Position numbers and translations under genes: made by a program. Source: an uncultured Rhodospirillales bacterium (lineage in GTDB: Bacteria > Pseudomonadota > Alphaproteobacteria > Acetobacterales > Acetobacteraceae). From it: a DNA stretch of 47,752 nt. The notes beneath the pieces are model-generated. The model searched no databases. It was not told the origin of the DNA and worked only from the letters and a program-made list of their open reading frames with translations. Location: NCBI GenBank assembly GCA_945957135.1, contig CAMFLK010000004.1, forward strand, positions 1 to 47,752. The letters are read 5' to 3'. Positions 5,023 to 13,313 of the stretch are shown in pieces (positions within the stretch are counted from its first letter, which is position 1; every line of letters starts with the position of its first letter).

Positions 5023-6888
5023 ATGACGGCCGGCTTCAGCGTCACCATCAGCGCGGTGGACCGTGCGACCGAAACGTTGAACGCGGTCAATAAGCGCATG
5101 ATGGCGTTGACCGCCCCGGCGGAGCGGTTCAACAAGGCGCTTTCGAAATTCGGAGATGTGTCGGGCATCCGGCGCCTGAGCGCCGGCATCGGCGATCTGG
5201 GGCGCGGTGCGATGGCCACCGCCGAGCGCATGTCCCGCATCCTGGCACCGCTCAGCGCCATCACCGGTGCTCTTTCGCTGGCCGGGCTGGTGCGGCTGAC
5301 CGATCAGTGGTCCGTCTTCGGCCAGCAGCTCGGCTTCAGCGCCGCCCGCATCGGCATTTCCGCGAGCCGGCTGCAATCCCTCCAGGGTGCGGCCCGCATG
5401 GCCGGCGCCTCGGCCGGCTCGCTGACCTCAGGCCTGCAATCCCTCCAGGACACACTCACCAATGCCGCCGCCGGGCGCGATGCCGAGGCGGTGGTGATGT
5501 TCCGCCAACTTGGTATCGAGTTTCGTGGCCTCACTGCGGCGGACGCGTTGCCGAAGCTTGCCGACCGTATCGCGGCGATCCGCAATCCGACGCTCCAGGC
5601 CATGGTGGCCACGAAGCTGTTCGGAGCGGCCGGGGAGGAGTTGCTGCCGTTCCTGCGTCGGGGCTCGGCCGGCATGCGGGAATACGAGGATGCCGCCCGC
5701 CGGCATGGGCTGATCAACGAAAAAGGCGTGAAGGCGGCAGGCGACTTCCAGCGGGCGCAGACCAATCTGAAGATGGCGGTCGAGGGGCTGGGCTATGCCG
5801 TCGCCGAACGGTTGGCGCCGGTTCTGCTGCCGATGCTCAACGATCTCGCGGGTTGGATCGACCGTCATCGCACCGACATCGCCGAGACGATCGGCCGTAT
5901 CGCGGATGCGTTCAAGTCGTGGATCGACGGCGGCGGCCTGGATCGCCTGACGGAGCAGATCGGTCATCTGATCGAGCGTGTGGATGCGATCGCGCAGGCC
6001 TTCGGCGGCTGGAAGGTGGCCGCGATCGCCCTCGGCGCGGTGCTGACGGCCAAGGTGTTGGCGCCCGTCCTGAGGCTGTCGGGTCTGCTTGTCCGCATGG
6101 GAAGCGTCATCGGCTGGGCTCGGCTGCTGACCGGTGGCCTGTGGGGCGCGGTGACCCAGCTGCATGGCGATACCGACCCCAACGCCACGCCGGATGGGGT
6201 CTATCCCGGCTTTAAGCCGGACATGGACGGCAGCGTCCATAATTTCCGCAACGATGTCTGGAACCCGCTGAGGCGGGCGGCAGGCTGGGTTGGCGACAAG
6301 CTCGGTATCACCGGTGGCAATGCGAGTGCCGGCGGCGTGATGCAGCAGTTGCAGGCCCTCGGATGGTCGCCGGAGGCAGCCGCCGGCCTCGCGGCGAACT
6401 TCCAGGCGGAATCGGGTTTCAATCCGGCTTTGGTCGGCGACAACGGCCAGGCCTACGGCATCGGCCAGTGGCACCCGGATCGGCAGGCTGAGTTCCAGCG
6501 CCTGTTCGGCCGCCCCATCCAGGGCAGCAGTCTCGCGCAGCAGCTCGCCTTCGCGGATTGGGAGTTGCGCGCCGGGAAGGAGCAGCGTGCCGGCCGGATG
6601 CTGATGGGCGCCAAAACGGCGACCGAGGCCGGACAGATCGGCTCGCTGTTCTACGAGCGACCACGCGACCGCTGGGGCCAGGCGCAAGCCCGCGGCAGGC
6701 TGGCGCAGGACATCTATCGCGCCGGCGGCGCCTCTGTCGCGGGGCCCGGTGCCCCCGGCGGCGGCACCGCGACCGTCAACGTCGTCATTCGCGGCGCCCC
6801 GGCTGGCACGACGGCCACCACCACCTCCAGCGGCAACCTCGCCACCACCGCGCGCATCGAGCGGCCCAGCCTCGGCACCGTGCCGTAG
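5023..6888 (+). CDS. Tail tape-measure protein with C-terminal tail lysozyme domain
   Basis: A 621-residue tail protein. Residues 1-330 have the Ala-rich helical repeats of tape-measure proteins, with a hydrophobic segment near 83-98 and a longer one near 332-368 that may insert in the membrane during DNA entry. Residues about 437-565 match the phage tail lysozyme fold: GWSPEAAAGLAANFQAESG, followed by QAYGIGQWHPDR and a closing FYERP segment. The Glu in the AESG motif is the likely catalytic acid for peptidoglycan cleavage. The C-terminal 50 residues are Gly/Thr/Pro-rich. The start at 5023 is preceded by AGGGG. The protein is shorter than most siphophage tape measures, so the tail would be short or the gene is internally reduced. 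Confidence 0.8.
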   Translation: MTAGFSVTISAVDRATETLNAVNKRMMALTAPAERFNKALSKFGDVSGIRRLSAGIGDLGRGAMATAERMSRILAPLSAITGALSLAGLVRLTDQWSVFGQQLGFSAARIGISASRLQSLQGAARMAGASAGSLTSGLQSLQDTLTNAAAGRDAEAVVMFRQLGIEFRGLTAADALPKLADRIAAIRNPTLQAMVATKLFGAAGEELLPFLRRGSAGMREYEDAARRHGLINEKGVKAAGDFQRAQTNLKMAVEGLGYAVAERLAPVLLPMLNDLAGWIDRHRTDIAETIGRIADAFKSWIDGGGLDRLTEQIGHLIERVDAIAQAFGGWKVAAIALGAVLTAKVLAPVLRLSGLLVRMGSVIGWARLLTGGLWGAVTQLHGDTDPNATPDGVYPGFKPDMDGSVHNFRNDVWNPLRRAAGWVGDKLGITGGNASAGGVMQQLQALGWSPEAAAGLAANFQAESGFNPALVGDNGQAYGIGQWHPDRQAEFQRLFGRPIQGSSLAQQLAFADWELRAGKEQRAGRMLMGAKTATEAGQIGSLFYERPRDRWGQAQARGRLAQDIYRAGGASVAGPGAPGGGTATVNVVIRGAPAGTTATTTSSGNLATTARIERPSLGTVP

Positions 6889-7358: not shown

Positions 7359-7766
7359 CGATTTGTACCATAAGTGGGCAAATATTGCGACTGCGGGCAC
7401 GGTGCTAAGCCCCACGATCAATAGTCCAACGAAGGTCGAAATTTTCACTTCTGCAAAAAACGACATCAACACCAACATCAAAGTAAGCAAACAACCGAAT
7501 CCGAACGTCCAATGAACCGAACCTCTGTAAAGACGGTCGTAATTAGAGCGAAAAACGCTAAGGTCAATTTTTATTAAATTCAACTTATCTTCTATTTCTT
7601 CCAATTGAAATCCTCTATCTTTTTCCTCACGAAGCCATTCTTTTATATTCGCTACTTTCTTTTCGACGGGCGCCACCCCTAATTCACCCGATATTTGCAA
7701 TATGGCCGTGCCCGCGTGGATGCCGACTCCCAACTGGACAATGCTGTAGAAGTCTTGCACATTCAT
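7287..7766 (-). CDS. Two-helix membrane protein of unknown function in AT-rich cargo
   Basis: A 159-residue protein with a soluble N-terminal half (residues 1-80, containing a charged helical stretch KEWLREEKDRGFQLEEIEDK) and two closely spaced membrane helices at about 86-105 and 111-132. A short charged C-terminal tail follows. There is no signal peptide. I cannot assign a family. Base composition is clearly lower in G+C than the flanking phage genes. It is transcribed divergently from the ImmA-type gene, with only 27 bases between the two starts, so they probably share control. A soluble sensor domain joined to a two-helix membrane part is a common layout for phage exclusion or abortive-infection effectors, but that is inference from layout only. 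Confidence 0.55.
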   Translation of the reverse strand: MNVQDFYSIVQLGVGIHAGTAILQISGELGVAPVEKKVANIKEWLREEKDRGFQLEEIEDKLNLIKIDLSVFRSNYDRLYRGSVHWTFGFGCLLTLMLVLMSFFAEVKISTFVGLLIVGLSTVPAVAIFAHLWYKSSDSLRDISMKLSAIEADVKSPDA

Positions 7767-7773
7767 TGCGATA

Positions 7774-7782
7774 CTCTAAGAG
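7774..7782. promoter_or_regulatory. Palindrome in 27-bp divergent intergenic region
   Basis: CTCTAAGAG is a symmetric 4+1+4 site midway between the starts of the membrane-protein gene (7766, minus) and the XRE/ImmA gene (7794, plus). The HTH domain of the ImmA-type protein could bind here and repress both genes. The site is short and could occur by chance. Confidence 0.3.
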
Positions 7783-7793
7783 ATTCGGGCTTT

Positions 7794-8936
7794 ATGGAAA
7801 CGTTCAACCAAGCAGTTTTCGCGTCGATCCTGGCAGCTCGGCATCTAACGTTGAAGGGGGTGTCTGAGCGGATCGGCGTTTCCGAATCCGCTCTCAAAGC
7901 AACGATAGCAGACAATCCGCCTCCGAACCAAAGTCTCGTTTCACAGTTGTCGGTTCAGCTGTCGGTGCCAGCGTTTGTCTTCTATATGGATCATGCACCC
8001 GAGCTGGGTGGCGCTGTGGTTGATTTCCGTGAGTTGAAACCGAGCGCGACGCCGAAGCTCCCGAAGACCGTTAGGGCCATTGATCTGGCGGAGCGTCTTC
8101 AGGAAGAGGCCGAAAGCCTGGGACACAGAGATAGCCTTCCGCGTCATGTCTCCATTGATGATATCAAACGCCGCGAATACGCTCAAGAGATTAGAGATTA
8201 TCTTGGCATTACTGAAAAACAGCAAATAGAATCGCGCGACGCTCGCCAATTTTATTCCGTTTGCCGATCTGCAGTTGAGTCTAAAGGCGTCTTTGTGATG
8301 CATGATAACTTTCCATCAGACGATGGAAGCGGGTTCTGTTTGGCTGATAGCAGCGCCAGAGTCATCGTTATCAACACGGAGAACCAAAATCACGGGCGGC
8401 GGAACTTCACATTGTTCCATGAGCTCGCCCACGCGCTGATGAGCAGCTCTGGGATTTCTGATCCCTTTGTCGTTCGGAACACGGTGGAACGAGTTTGCAA
8501 CCGATTTTCTGCACGGGTATTGGCACCGGTTGCCCTGACAAAGTGGGCATTCGGTCGCGCCCGTGTTTCGAATGTGCCGACACTCGATGAAATTAGAAGG
8601 TGCGCCCGGTTTCTCAATATTAGCCAGCAAGCGACAGTCGTCCGTCTAGAGCAGCTAGGGCTGGTGAGCGAAGGCTCTCACACGGCTTGGCTGAGAGAAG
8701 TCAAAACTTTGGGAAACCCCGATTTTACCAGCGGAACAGGCGGCGGAAAAGTCGCGCAGGAACGCGTCAAACTGGCCCAGTATGGCTATACCTTTGCCCG
8801 TGTCTTTGGTCGTGCCGTAAAACAGGAAAAGATATCTCCCCTCGATCTTTACCGAATGTCGGGTTTGAAGCCAAAATATCAGCGCGCGTACTTCGATTTT
8901 GCTGCCACGGCCGGTGCCGACGATGCCGACGACTGA
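7794..8936 (+). CDS. XRE-HTH / ImmA-IrrE (COG2856) metallopeptidase
   Basis: A 380-residue two-domain protein. Residues 5-62 form a helix-turn-helix of the XRE type, including a GVSERIGVSESALKA segment. Residues about 150-300 carry a zinc peptidase of the ImmA/IrrE class with His209-Glu-Leu-Ala-His213 inside a LFHELAHAL motif. A C-terminal helical part follows. Family members such as ImmA of ICEBs1 cleave a cognate repressor, and HTH-COG2856 fusions are also proposed antitoxins. I start at 7794, where the HTH begins; the frame is open further upstream to 7695, but that part would overlap the divergent membrane-protein gene. The 3' end overlaps the PIN-like gene by 14 bases, implying coupling. 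AT-rich compared with the prophage genes, so probably acquired separately. Confidence 0.8.
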   Translation: METFNQAVFASILAARHLTLKGVSERIGVSESALKATIADNPPPNQSLVSQLSVQLSVPAFVFYMDHAPELGGAVVDFRELKPSATPKLPKTVRAIDLAERLQEEAESLGHRDSLPRHVSIDDIKRREYAQEIRDYLGITEKQQIESRDARQFYSVCRSAVESKGVFVMHDNFPSDDGSGFCLADSSARVIVINTENQNHGRRNFTLFHELAHALMSSSGISDPFVVRNTVERVCNRFSARVLAPVALTKWAFGRARVSNVPTLDEIRRCARFLNISQQATVVRLEQLGLVSEGSHTAWLREVKTLGNPDFTSGTGGGKVAQERVKLAQYGYTFARVFGRAVKQEKISPLDLYRMSGLKPKYQRAYFDFAATAGADDADD

Positions 8937-9351
8937 CGGCGCGCCAGTTTATGTTGTGGATTGCGACGGCCTCGTCACCATTGCACAGACAAAAAACAAC
9001 GCCCTTCGCTCAGCGGCGCTTCAGTTGCTTGAGAAAGGCAAAATGTGCGTCCCGACTGGAGTGTTAAGCGAGCTTAAAAACGCTTATGAAGCCGAACACA
9101 AGATCCTTGCTTCACATATAGCGAAAAAAATACGGGTCAAACCAGCACATTCTTTGAAGACCGCCGCTCTTGCAAGTAAGGCGAACTCCGGATTTAAAAT
9201 TGAGCCCTACGGTAATGCAGACTGGCACGCGGCTGCAGTAGCGGCATGCGAAGATTACGTTCTCGTTACAACAAAAAAGCGTAGACCCTTCTATAAGGAA
9301 ATTCTTGACTGCAGCATCATCATTGTTGATGACCTTGCCGTTCCCGATTAG
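8923..9351 (+). CDS. PIN-like (DUF4411-type) putative ribonuclease toxin
   Basis: A 142-residue protein with the layout of a PIN-fold nuclease. The layout is a first strand YVVDCDGL with Asp13 and Asp15, a helix starting VPTGVLSELK with a conserved-type Glu, a later NADWHAAAVA helix with an Asp, and a strand VLVTT followed by the final IIIVDDLA strand. DUF4411 proteins coupled to XRE/COG2856 genes are a recurrent toxin-antitoxin-like pair in bacterial genomes, and this gene overlaps the ImmA-type gene. The alternative start at 8899 is possible; neither start has a strong ribosome site, which fits translational coupling. It would act on RNA in the cytoplasm. Fold and role are inferred from motif order and context. 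Confidence 0.55.
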   Translation: MPTTDGAPVYVVDCDGLVTIAQTKNNALRSAALQLLEKGKMCVPTGVLSELKNAYEAEHKILASHIAKKIRVKPAHSLKTAALASKANSGFKIEPYGNADWHAAAVAACEDYVLVTTKKRRPFYKEILDCSIIIVDDLAVPD

Positions 9352-11155: not shown

Positions 11156-11230
<75 letters not shown>

Positions 11231-11352: not shown

Positions 11353-11427
11353 GCGGGCGTAGCTCAGGGGTAGAGCACAACCTTGCCAAGGTTGGGGTCG
11401 AGGGTTCGAATCCCTTCGCCCGCTCCA
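11353..11427 (+). tRNA. tRNA-Gly(GCC)
   Basis: Acceptor GCGGGCG pairs with CGCCCGC. The D arm is GCTCAGGGGTAGAGC. The anticodon stem CAACC/GGTTG carries loop TTGCCAA with anticodon GCC, and the T arm is GAGGG TTCGAAT CCCTT. The discriminator is T followed by an encoded CCA (11425-11427). It reads GGC and GGT. A lower-GC kinase cassette begins 160 bases downstream; the gap (11428-11587) holds the small inverted repeat TTGGC..GCCAA at 11490-11505 and a run of six T at 11519-11524. Confidence 0.95.
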
Positions 11428-11587
11428 GATTTTTCGAAGACAATGCCCGTCGGGTTTGCGAGTTTGACTACGGTAGTCCCGGTTCATACTTGGCAACGTA
11501 GCCAACGCATAAGCATCGTTTTTTCTCCCGTCCTTTCACGCAAGTTGGCCCCGTTGTATAGGGTTGCCCAATAACAGGGGGACATAA

Positions 11588-12064
11588 ATGGCACAGCGTT
11601 GGCTGGGGCTTACCGCGTCAAAGGACTCAGTGGTAGTGGTCGATGCCGAAATACCCGACGAGTTCGATGAGCCAATCATCATCAGATCGGACGATACATG
11701 GCGAGTGCAGACAGGCGACCGGGCAGCCGCATACAGTGTCCTTCATAAGCAGTGCGCCGACTATATTCAAGAGAACCGCATCGACGCGGTTCTGGTGAAG
11801 GCAAGCGCAGTGACGGGAAGGGGTGCCGCTACCGTTGGCTTTCTGCTCAGCGCAGAAGTCCGTGGCATCGTAATCGCGGCAGCTGCGTCGCGTTGCCCTG
11901 TCAAGACGCTATCTAAGGCAGTCATCAGTAAGACATATGGCGACAGGAAGGTAGATGAATACGTCGCCGATGACGCTTTCTGGACGGATAAGACGACGGG
12001 GGGGACTCTTCGCAGGCTTAGCCGAGAGACGGCAATGTTGCTTATCGCGGCGAGGCACGCCTAA
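11588..12064 (+). CDS. Putative RNase H/RuvC-fold protein (DUF3010-like), kinase-coupled
   Basis: A 158-residue cytoplasmic protein. The order of elements resembles small RuvC-like (RNase H-fold) proteins. A first strand pair is WLGLTASKDSVVVVDAE (5-21), then a helix with LHKQCADYIQENR (52-64) and a buried strand IDAVLVKAS (65-73). After that come a GRGAATVGF turn-helix and a strand IVIAAAA followed by a Lys-rich helix VKTLSKAVISKTYG. The acidic residues expected for nuclease activity on strands one and four are absent (GLTASK and VKAS), so it may be a non-catalytic sensor. The start is preceded by AGGGGGA. Its TAA shares a base with the kinase ATG (TAATG). G+C is lower than in the flanking chromosome. 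The fold assignment is my inference and needs structural comparison. Confidence 0.5.
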   Translation: MAQRWLGLTASKDSVVVVDAEIPDEFDEPIIIRSDDTWRVQTGDRAAAYSVLHKQCADYIQENRIDAVLVKASAVTGRGAATVGFLLSAEVRGIVIAAAASRCPVKTLSKAVISKTYGDRKVDEYVADDAFWTDKTTGGTLRRLSRETAMLLIAARHA

Positions 12065-13095
12065 TGGCTGACTACGTCTCCGGCTTGAAGGTCGGCGCGA
12101 AGCTTGGTAATGGCGCATTCGGCGAAGTCTTTCGAGGCGAGGATCCTGCACACGGCGAGGTCGCGGTGAAGGTACTCAAGCGGGCGAGGTTTCAGGACGA
12201 CGCCACTTGGCCCATTTACAAGGCCGGGTATCTTGCCGAAGCGAAGAACTTAGCCAAGGCAACTCACCCCAATGTGGTGAAGGTCCATCATGTGGTTGAG
12301 GCGCCGGACGGGGACAGTGTGGTCATTTGCATGGCGTTTTGTCCCGGCGGTTCACTTCAAGCGATCTTCGAGAATGGGCCGATGACGCTGTCGGCAGTAC
12401 GAAAGGTCGCTACAGATATCCTCATGGGATTAGGGGCTATGCACGCCCGCGGGATGGTTCATCGCGACATCAAGCCAGCGAACATTCTGCTGAATGGAAA
12501 GGCGGAGGCCCAAATTAGTGATTTCGGACTCGTAACCGACGACTTGGTGCTGGGATACGCATCGCAGGCTGGCTACAACGACCACATCGCCTACGAGATC
12601 TGGAACGGGAAGGGAACGAGCGCCAAGTCGGATATATGGGCTCTCGGGATGACACTTTACCGACTCCTGCATGGGCAGGCGTGGTATGAAGAGGCGCCCA
12701 ACCCGCAGGATATAGTCAAGGGCGGTGGCTTCGCCGATACGCTACGATGGCTCCCTCATATACCCAAAGGATGGCGCCGCGCGATCCGCAAAATGCTGAA
12801 CGACGACAGCTCTGCCCGCTGCCAGAACTCGGCGCAGGCTTTGAATGCGCTTGCTCGTCTGCCCGTCTCGCCTAAATGGGATGTCGCCGTCACTCGGGAC
12901 CTGATCAGCTGGAAGATGTTCAGGGGCACTCGGCGCATAATCGTTGAATGGAAGCGCCACTCCGCCCGCAAGCATGAGTGGGAGGCATGGAGCGAGCCGG
13001 CCGGAACGGGGCGAAGCAAACGCCTCGATGATTCCGGCGGAGTCGTGGGCCGGGCCGAGGCGGTGAAGGGCCTTGAGGCTTTCTTCGAAGTCTAA
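12064..13095 (+). CDS. Hanks-type serine/threonine protein kinase
   Basis: A 343-residue soluble eukaryotic-like kinase that would phosphorylate Ser/Thr on partner proteins. All main motifs are seen: Gly loop GNGAFGEV (15-22), Lys36 in VAVKVLK, Glu59 of helix C, the catalytic loop HRDIKPAN (133-140) with Asp135, DFG at 153-155, an AYE in place of APE (176-178), and DIWALG with Asp190. It should be active. Residues about 268-343 form an extra domain rich in Trp and basic residues (VEWKRHSARKHEWEAW), unlike PASTA or other common sensor tails, and there is no membrane helix. It is translationally coupled to the RNase H-like gene upstream and converges with a zinc-ribbon gene with a 4-base overlap. 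Context and base composition suggest horizontal acquisition. Confidence 0.88.
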   Translation: MADYVSGLKVGAKLGNGAFGEVFRGEDPAHGEVAVKVLKRARFQDDATWPIYKAGYLAEAKNLAKATHPNVVKVHHVVEAPDGDSVVICMAFCPGGSLQAIFENGPMTLSAVRKVATDILMGLGAMHARGMVHRDIKPANILLNGKAEAQISDFGLVTDDLVLGYASQAGYNDHIAYEIWNGKGTSAKSDIWALGMTLYRLLHGQAWYEEAPNPQDIVKGGGFADTLRWLPHIPKGWRRAIRKMLNDDSSARCQNSAQALNALARLPVSPKWDVAVTRDLISWKMFRGTRRIIVEWKRHSARKHEWEAWSEPAGTGRSKRLDDSGGVVGRAEAVKGLEAFFEV

Positions 13096-13313
13096 CTAGA
13101 TCTGAAACGGCGCTGTAACAAATAGTGCTCAGTCAGATCGGTTACGGTAATTTGATTGAGCCCAAGCTTGGAGGTAGCCACCGCTTGCCGCTCCTCCGTA
13201 CACTTCTTGCAGTAGGCGGCATCCGCGACGACGCCTTGCGCGGGCCGCCAATGACGATTGCAGTTACGACACCGAGGCAGCGTCAGACTCAGGTTAGGCG
13301 ACTTTCGCCACAT
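13092..13313 (-). CDS. Small zinc-ribbon protein
   Basis: A 73-residue basic protein with two Cys pairs, CRNC near residue 15 and CKKC near residue 36, spaced as in a zinc ribbon. The N-terminus is MWRKSPNLSLTLPRC. GGGAGG lies ten bases before the ATG, supporting a real gene. It overlaps the 3' end of the kinase gene by four bases in tail-to-tail orientation. No family name can be given; it might bind nucleic acid or a protein partner, and could be part of the kinase cassette or merely adjacent. Confidence 0.6.
   Translation of the reverse strand: MWRKSPNLSLTLPRCRNCNRHWRPAQGVVADAAYCKKCTEERQAVATSKLGLNQITVTDLTEHYLLQRRFRSS

Follow-up and report, generated by a model that had tools for sequence, protein, structure and literature searches.

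Protein kinases have been described in several phage defenses, and the one that proves closest to the genes considered here is Stk of phages of the 933W/phi24B type. In stable lysogens stk is expressed from pRM (PMC3430580). According to one report, Stk is activated on HK97 infection and is involved in phage exclusion (PMC3681748), and another describes the Stk-type block of phage growth as costing the cell (PMC6356687). Other defenses with kinases include PD-T4-6, Stk2, KKP, MADS, and BREX. Here we describe a cassette of three genes, A, B, and C, in a 47,752-nucleotide stretch of DNA (the window, meaning the whole stretch that was analyzed) from contig C4 of the 4.4-Mb draft genome of an uncultured Rhodospirillales bacterium (GCA_945957135.1). 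A encodes a protein with a RuvC fold, B a Hanks-type kinase, and C a zinc ribbon (table 1). Because B and Stk share one clade and Stk has been reported in HK97 exclusion, sequence comparison indicates that the cassette is a relative of a working exclusion kinase.

A Conserved Unit of Three Genes

The stop codon of A overlaps the ATG of B in the motif TAATG, and C is convergent to B, the 3' ends of the two overlapping by 4 nt. The GC content is 0.58-0.59 at 11-13 kb versus ~0.65-0.72 over most of the window, and 160 bp separate the end of tRNA-Gly(GCC) from the start of A. The first-pass annotation, which was made from the letters alone, had described these three genes and a lower-GC block next to a tRNA, and both descriptions are borne out. 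Upstream of A, CTT and TGTA/TGTAT blocks could be aligned by eye in all or nearly all of 10 loci. Because a CTTnCAC-15-TGTAT-like element precedes A in these ten otherwise unalike upstream regions, the sequences suggest a single promoter for A and B.

Table 1. Features of the cassette and of related loci (coordinates refer to the window unless a locus is named; aa, amino acids)
Feature	Location	Strand	Evidence or remark
tRNA-Gly(GCC)	11353..11427	+	ARAGORN; probable integration site of the cassette-bearing island
Promoter-like element CTTnCAC, 15 nt, TGTATa, upstream of A	11533..11560	+	Alignment by eye
Gene A, 158 aa, RuvC fold, without the RuvC catalytic acids D7 and E66	11588..12064	+	AlphaFold2, PDB matches, alignment
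Gene B, 343 aa, Hanks-type protein kinase, domain ~residues 7-266	12064..13095	+	Pfam, invariant catalytic residues, Stk clade
Trp/Arg-rich C-terminal kinase domain, residues ~264-343	12853..13092	+	AlphaFold2: five strands and a helix
Gene C, 73 aa, four-cysteine zinc ribbon	13092..13313	-	Conserved beside B; CxxC...CxxC
Type I restriction operon with A-B insert	L096 1468-3005
Type I restriction operon with A-B insert	L097 1468-3008
4.3-kb integrative element at tRNA-Gly, 49-bp repeats	L009 7754-12086

Protein A is too diverged for simple searches: direct tblastn with A against plasmids, phages, and viral contigs gave no match, and relatives were reached only through a kinase-first search and an alignment-based scan. 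Among 299 genomes of the same order the kinase search found two close relatives, at 63% and 53% identity, both in genomes with the full A-B-C set in the same geometry. An A-type gene accompanied each kinase-first hit, in these two genomes, one more genome, a Sinorhizobium meliloti plasmid, SPbetaL7, JLK-2012, and two type I restriction-modification operons. The scan, in which an alignment of four A proteins was run against one genome per species, yielded 25 loci from Alpha-, Beta-, and Gammaproteobacteria and one Acidobacteriota metagenome-assembled genome. The adjacency of the pair, whose conservation the first-pass annotation had named as a check, holds throughout, as B lies directly downstream of A with the genes overlapping in 25/25 genome loci (by 4 nt in 15, 1 nt in 9, and 8 nt in 1). 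C is detectable in 22 of the 25 and as a diverged copy in a 23rd (L032), and 20 of these 23 proteins keep CxxC...CxxC. Of the two loci left without C, one has a kinase that is cut short (L009) and the other ends just past the stop codon of B (L025). All three genes are under purifying selection, with nonsynonymous divergence (dN) of ~0.1-0.3 and synonymous divergence (dS) of ~2 or saturated for A and B, and dN of ~0.24-0.61 for C. Because the three genes recur in the same order in many genomes and evolve under purifying selection, the recurrence of the arrangement is far beyond chance.

Several lines of evidence identify the fold of A. An AlphaFold2 model built with 26 sequences has a predicted local distance difference test score (pLDDT) of 91.3, and its best Foldseek matches in the PDB are all RuvC resolvases (E 4e-8, TM score up to ~0.77). 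In structural comparison A matches Thermus RuvC with a Z score of 17.2 and a root-mean-square deviation of 2.5 over 150/158 residues, the other relatives dropping to ~12. The label RNase H-like that A had been given from its sequence is thus upheld and narrowed to the RuvC subfamily. A Pfam search with A gave no RuvC (PF02075) match, and Pfam, PADLOC, NCBIfam, and PHROGs supplied no family name. The weak matches to DUF3010, Capsid-VNN, and HypA were treated as noise. In an alignment with the RuvC proteins of 14 related genomes, the D7 position of RuvC is T, S, V, G, or A in the A proteins, and the E66 position is K in 26/26. Because both acids are replaced, our inference is that A lacks RuvC-type nuclease activity and should be a non-cleaving RuvC. 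An ordinary RuvC is encoded separately in the same genome.

The kinase appears fully equipped for catalysis. B matches Pkinase with E 7.9e-42 in Pfam, and Lys36, Glu59, HRDIKPxN (Asp135), and DFG (Asp153) do not vary among 25 relatives, in agreement with its earlier description as a complete kinase. Four Trp and one Arg are likewise invariant in the C-terminal domain, for which the first-pass annotation had looked to structure prediction. That domain does receive a confident predicted fold (pLDDT 89.8), and a PDB structure search with it gave no match below E 0.001, although a known fold is possible.

Named defense kinases were considered for B but not adopted. PADLOC scores B at 183 bits with its mad6 model and 135 bits with its PD-T4-6 model, but a different kinase encoded in this genome reaches 252 and 341 bits, and both models also fire in Bacillus subtilis and Corynebacterium glutamicum. 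The two models are not specific, and since they score ordinary kinases higher, B was not assigned to PD-T4-6 or MAD6. The clade of B excludes two full-length mad6 matches, which argues against a MADS kinase, and the cassette lacks the phosphatase or second kinase that KKP or Stk2 would call for.

Relatives in Phages and Restriction Operons

The kinase-first search also reached SPbeta-like Bacillus phage and 933W-type Shiga phages, and in both phage types a gene of 150-170 aa overlaps the kinase start. The upstream gene is a member of phrog_3875, whose annotation reads "RuvC-like Holliday junction resolvase", and Stk is a member of phrog_2361. The phrog_3875 profile matches RuvC with E 1.8e-4, and all 23 distinct A sequences of this phage branch have Arg at the D7 position and Arg or Lys at the E66 position. 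A kinase follows A in 43/43 viral contigs of the branch, its open reading frame (ORF) being truncated in two. A match to the phage-branch pair is present in 223 of 5,426 Escherichia coli genomes, in 221 of them over most of the length of the pair. In the 933W-type immunity region, a Trp-containing DUF3024 protein is encoded between cI and the RuvC-like gene (L008 2074-2415).

A third branch is found on two plasmids, where hsdS and hsdR of a type I restriction operon flank the A-B pair, so that a kinase module is joined to restriction genes. Here the A proteins match both RuvC (E 2.5e-5) and phage-branch A (E 4e-5), and both have Lys aligned at E66.

The three branches unite in a single kinase clade, with support of 100/100 against 16 other kinases that include two MAD6-like ones and of 99/95 with another outgroup set. 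B and Stk are of the same length and colinear over ~300 columns (E 1e-45). Thus, the gene set that the first-pass annotation did not know has a kinase in the clade of 933W/phi24B-type Stk and the same two-gene layout. None of 142 genomes of the class showed an A gene of the P0006 type, a result that says little.

Mobile Settings and Defense Neighbors

The locus of Sphingomonas gilva (L009) likewise has this tRNA-Gly upstream of A, and a second, 49-bp copy of the 3' part of the tRNA lies 4.26 kb downstream, beyond a tyrosine-integrase-like ORF. To judge from this arrangement, the repeats are the attachment (att) repeats of a small island. The S. gilva copy looks decayed because its kinase is cut to 278 aa and C is missing. 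A second tRNA-Gly att copy was not found in the window, and the flanking short-chain dehydrogenase gene, considered for an empty-site comparison, had no close match in 24 relatives. In one relative the cassette sits between prophage tail genes.

PADLOC recognizes defense genes within ~8 kb of the cassette in 10/25 genome loci and on the S. meliloti plasmid. A genome carries a handful of defense systems, and on this general estimate ~1/25 such loci would be expected. The neighbors comprise RT_UG6 with a nitrilase, HEC-05, type I and type II restriction-modification genes, and the reverse transcriptase of retron I-C; dCTP deaminase and LmuB each occur at two loci, and ShosTA occurs at L033 and on the S. 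meliloti plasmid. On that plasmid, pHRB800, the locus adjoins a ShosTA-like pair and a HAD hydrolase, and the same neighbors stand in L033. The proposal of a defense cassette, which was made before any relatives were available, is well supported because the pair is always found together, lies on islands, plasmids, and prophages, and occurs among known defense systems rather than in ordinary housekeeping surroundings. The statement that the gene set is unfamiliar needs correction, given its kinship with Stk.

Some neighboring features stand apart from these comparisons. At two loci (L018 and L024) the cassette neighbors dnaA-dnaN-gyrB, a region that may be a hot spot for insertion. In the window, a gene for a helix-turn-helix and ImmA/IrrE-like metallopeptidase protein (7695-8936) overlaps a 150-aa ORF (8899-9351) that has a weak VapC/PIN match only; the whole segment (7695-9351) has lower GC and modest RmrA matches in PADLOC, and it may be a second small defense or toxin-antitoxin unit. 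Farther left, a tail length tape-measure protein (5023-6888; phrog_9570, E 1e-82) marks a prophage or remnant to the left of tRNA-Thr (11156-11230, minus strand). With tRNA-Gly, this tRNA makes two possible integration sites back to back.

Possible Function and Relation to Known Systems

On balance, we consider the cassette to be probably a mobile anti-phage module of the 933W-type Stk kinase family, in which A would sense, B would act, and the outcome would be abortive infection. That A senses and B carries out the response is plausible, and the loss of catalytic residues from A is consistent with it. Because a RuvC fold predicted not to cleave is constantly coupled to a kinase, A may sense branched DNA or phage recombination proteins. 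Its signal would most likely be phage recombination or replication, whether A meets branched DNA itself or a phage recombination protein sitting on such DNA. Translational coupling would fix the ratio of A to B, and A may either keep B inactive or recruit it until the signal appears. Active B would then phosphorylate itself and targets in the cell, and phage production would be stopped at the cost of the cell. C is confined to this branch and probably has an accessory regulatory role. HK97 orf41 is reported to be the trigger of Stk. Next to Gp40 in the early left operon, the HK97 record shows erf, which encodes a single-stranded-DNA-annealing recombination protein; by map order erf would be HK97 gene 41. 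If so, erf as the trigger would fit a recombination sensor.

Several observations weigh against this explanation. The residues of A and RuvC were matched in a fold-guided sequence alignment and not in superposed coordinates. With hhalign, A of this branch and A of the phage branch gave no significant match, fold and gene position being what they share. The 10/25 loci with defense neighbors are set against a general estimate, and the neighbors were picked by eye before the PADLOC scan. Moreover, the functional reports concern the phage member, Stk, only, and the non-phage members are known from genes alone. Finally, D35, E90, D123, D128, and E147 are invariant in all 26 A proteins, so that a different active site, and with it another activity of A, is possible.

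These invariant acids, together with the RuvC-like fold and the location of A inside type I restriction operons on two plasmids, would suit an A that is catalytically active, as nuclease or resolvase, from a displaced active site and is controlled through phosphorylation by B, with cleavage of phage DNA as the effector step. However, the core RuvC metal ligands D7 and E66 are gone in all three branches, with a basic residue in place of E66, and in the alignment most of the acids conserved here have no counterpart in the phage branch, so we regard an active nuclease as unlikely. The tight overlap of A and B and their mobile context also recall addiction modules. B would then be a toxic kinase of mobile elements, restrained by A (or C) in the manner of a toxin-antitoxin (TA) pair, with defense as a side effect, and the KKP kinase module has indeed been described as both TA-based and defensive (PMC11341870). 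On S. meliloti pHRB800 (L006 6788-8000), however, a long kinase ORF is retained though A is interrupted by an ISRm4-type transposase, the kinase start probably being damaged too. The TA and defense readings overlap in any case, and we find addiction an improbable account of the cassette. A switch for lysogeny or element maintenance, in which the kinase phosphorylates repressors of the element on DNA damage and plays no role against incoming phage, would suit the 933W-type pair downstream of cI in the immunity region but is very unlikely, given that many bacterial loci lie beside defense systems with no phage repressor seen by eye and that Stk is reported to be involved in HK97 exclusion.

If the cassette is indeed an anti-phage module, a more specific proposal can be offered tentatively. 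A nuclease-dead RuvC may recognize phage recombination intermediates or proteins (e.g., of the HK97 Erf type) and, coupled to a eukaryote-like kinase, form an innate immune sensor of DNA structure that signals by phosphorylation. Such a sensor would be spread through Proteobacteria as well as Bacillus and enterobacterial phages, and would even form part of type I restriction operons. We hold this to be possible rather than probable. In the literature we found no explanation of how Stk notices a foreign phage; if a dead RuvC does read recombination intermediates, this sensing step would become directly testable. The scattered kinases of phages, islands, and restriction operons would then represent one defense family, and the cassette would show clearly how a DNA-repair fold can be put to new use in an immune sensor, with phosphorylation as its signal.

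A Stk-type phage-exclusion kinase is known already. New, as far as the literature searched shows, are a defining partner with a RuvC fold, a third gene that encodes a zinc ribbon, the dispersal through defense islands, and the form found in restriction operons; searches for a RuvC partner of defense kinases found none in the papers within reach. Compared with the RuvC Holliday junction resolvase (PF02075), A shares the fold over its whole length but lacks the catalytic D7 and E66. The kinases of PD-T4-6, Stk2, KKP, MADS, and BREX have a Hanks-type core, as does the cassette, but no RuvC-fold partner has been reported for them according to our literature search, and the MAD6-like kinases of MADS sit outside the clade of B. 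The 933W/phi24B-type Stk module differs from the cassette in that a 54-aa ORF without cysteines, and not C, lies downstream of stk, and in that Stk has been reported as a tyrosine kinase. Unlike the cassette, the 933W-type module is located in the phage immunity region after cI. The A proteins of the two are too diverged to match directly in sequence. The two also correspond: each consists of two overlapping genes in the same order, each is mobile, and in each the kinase is preceded by a RuvC-like protein without D7 and E66.
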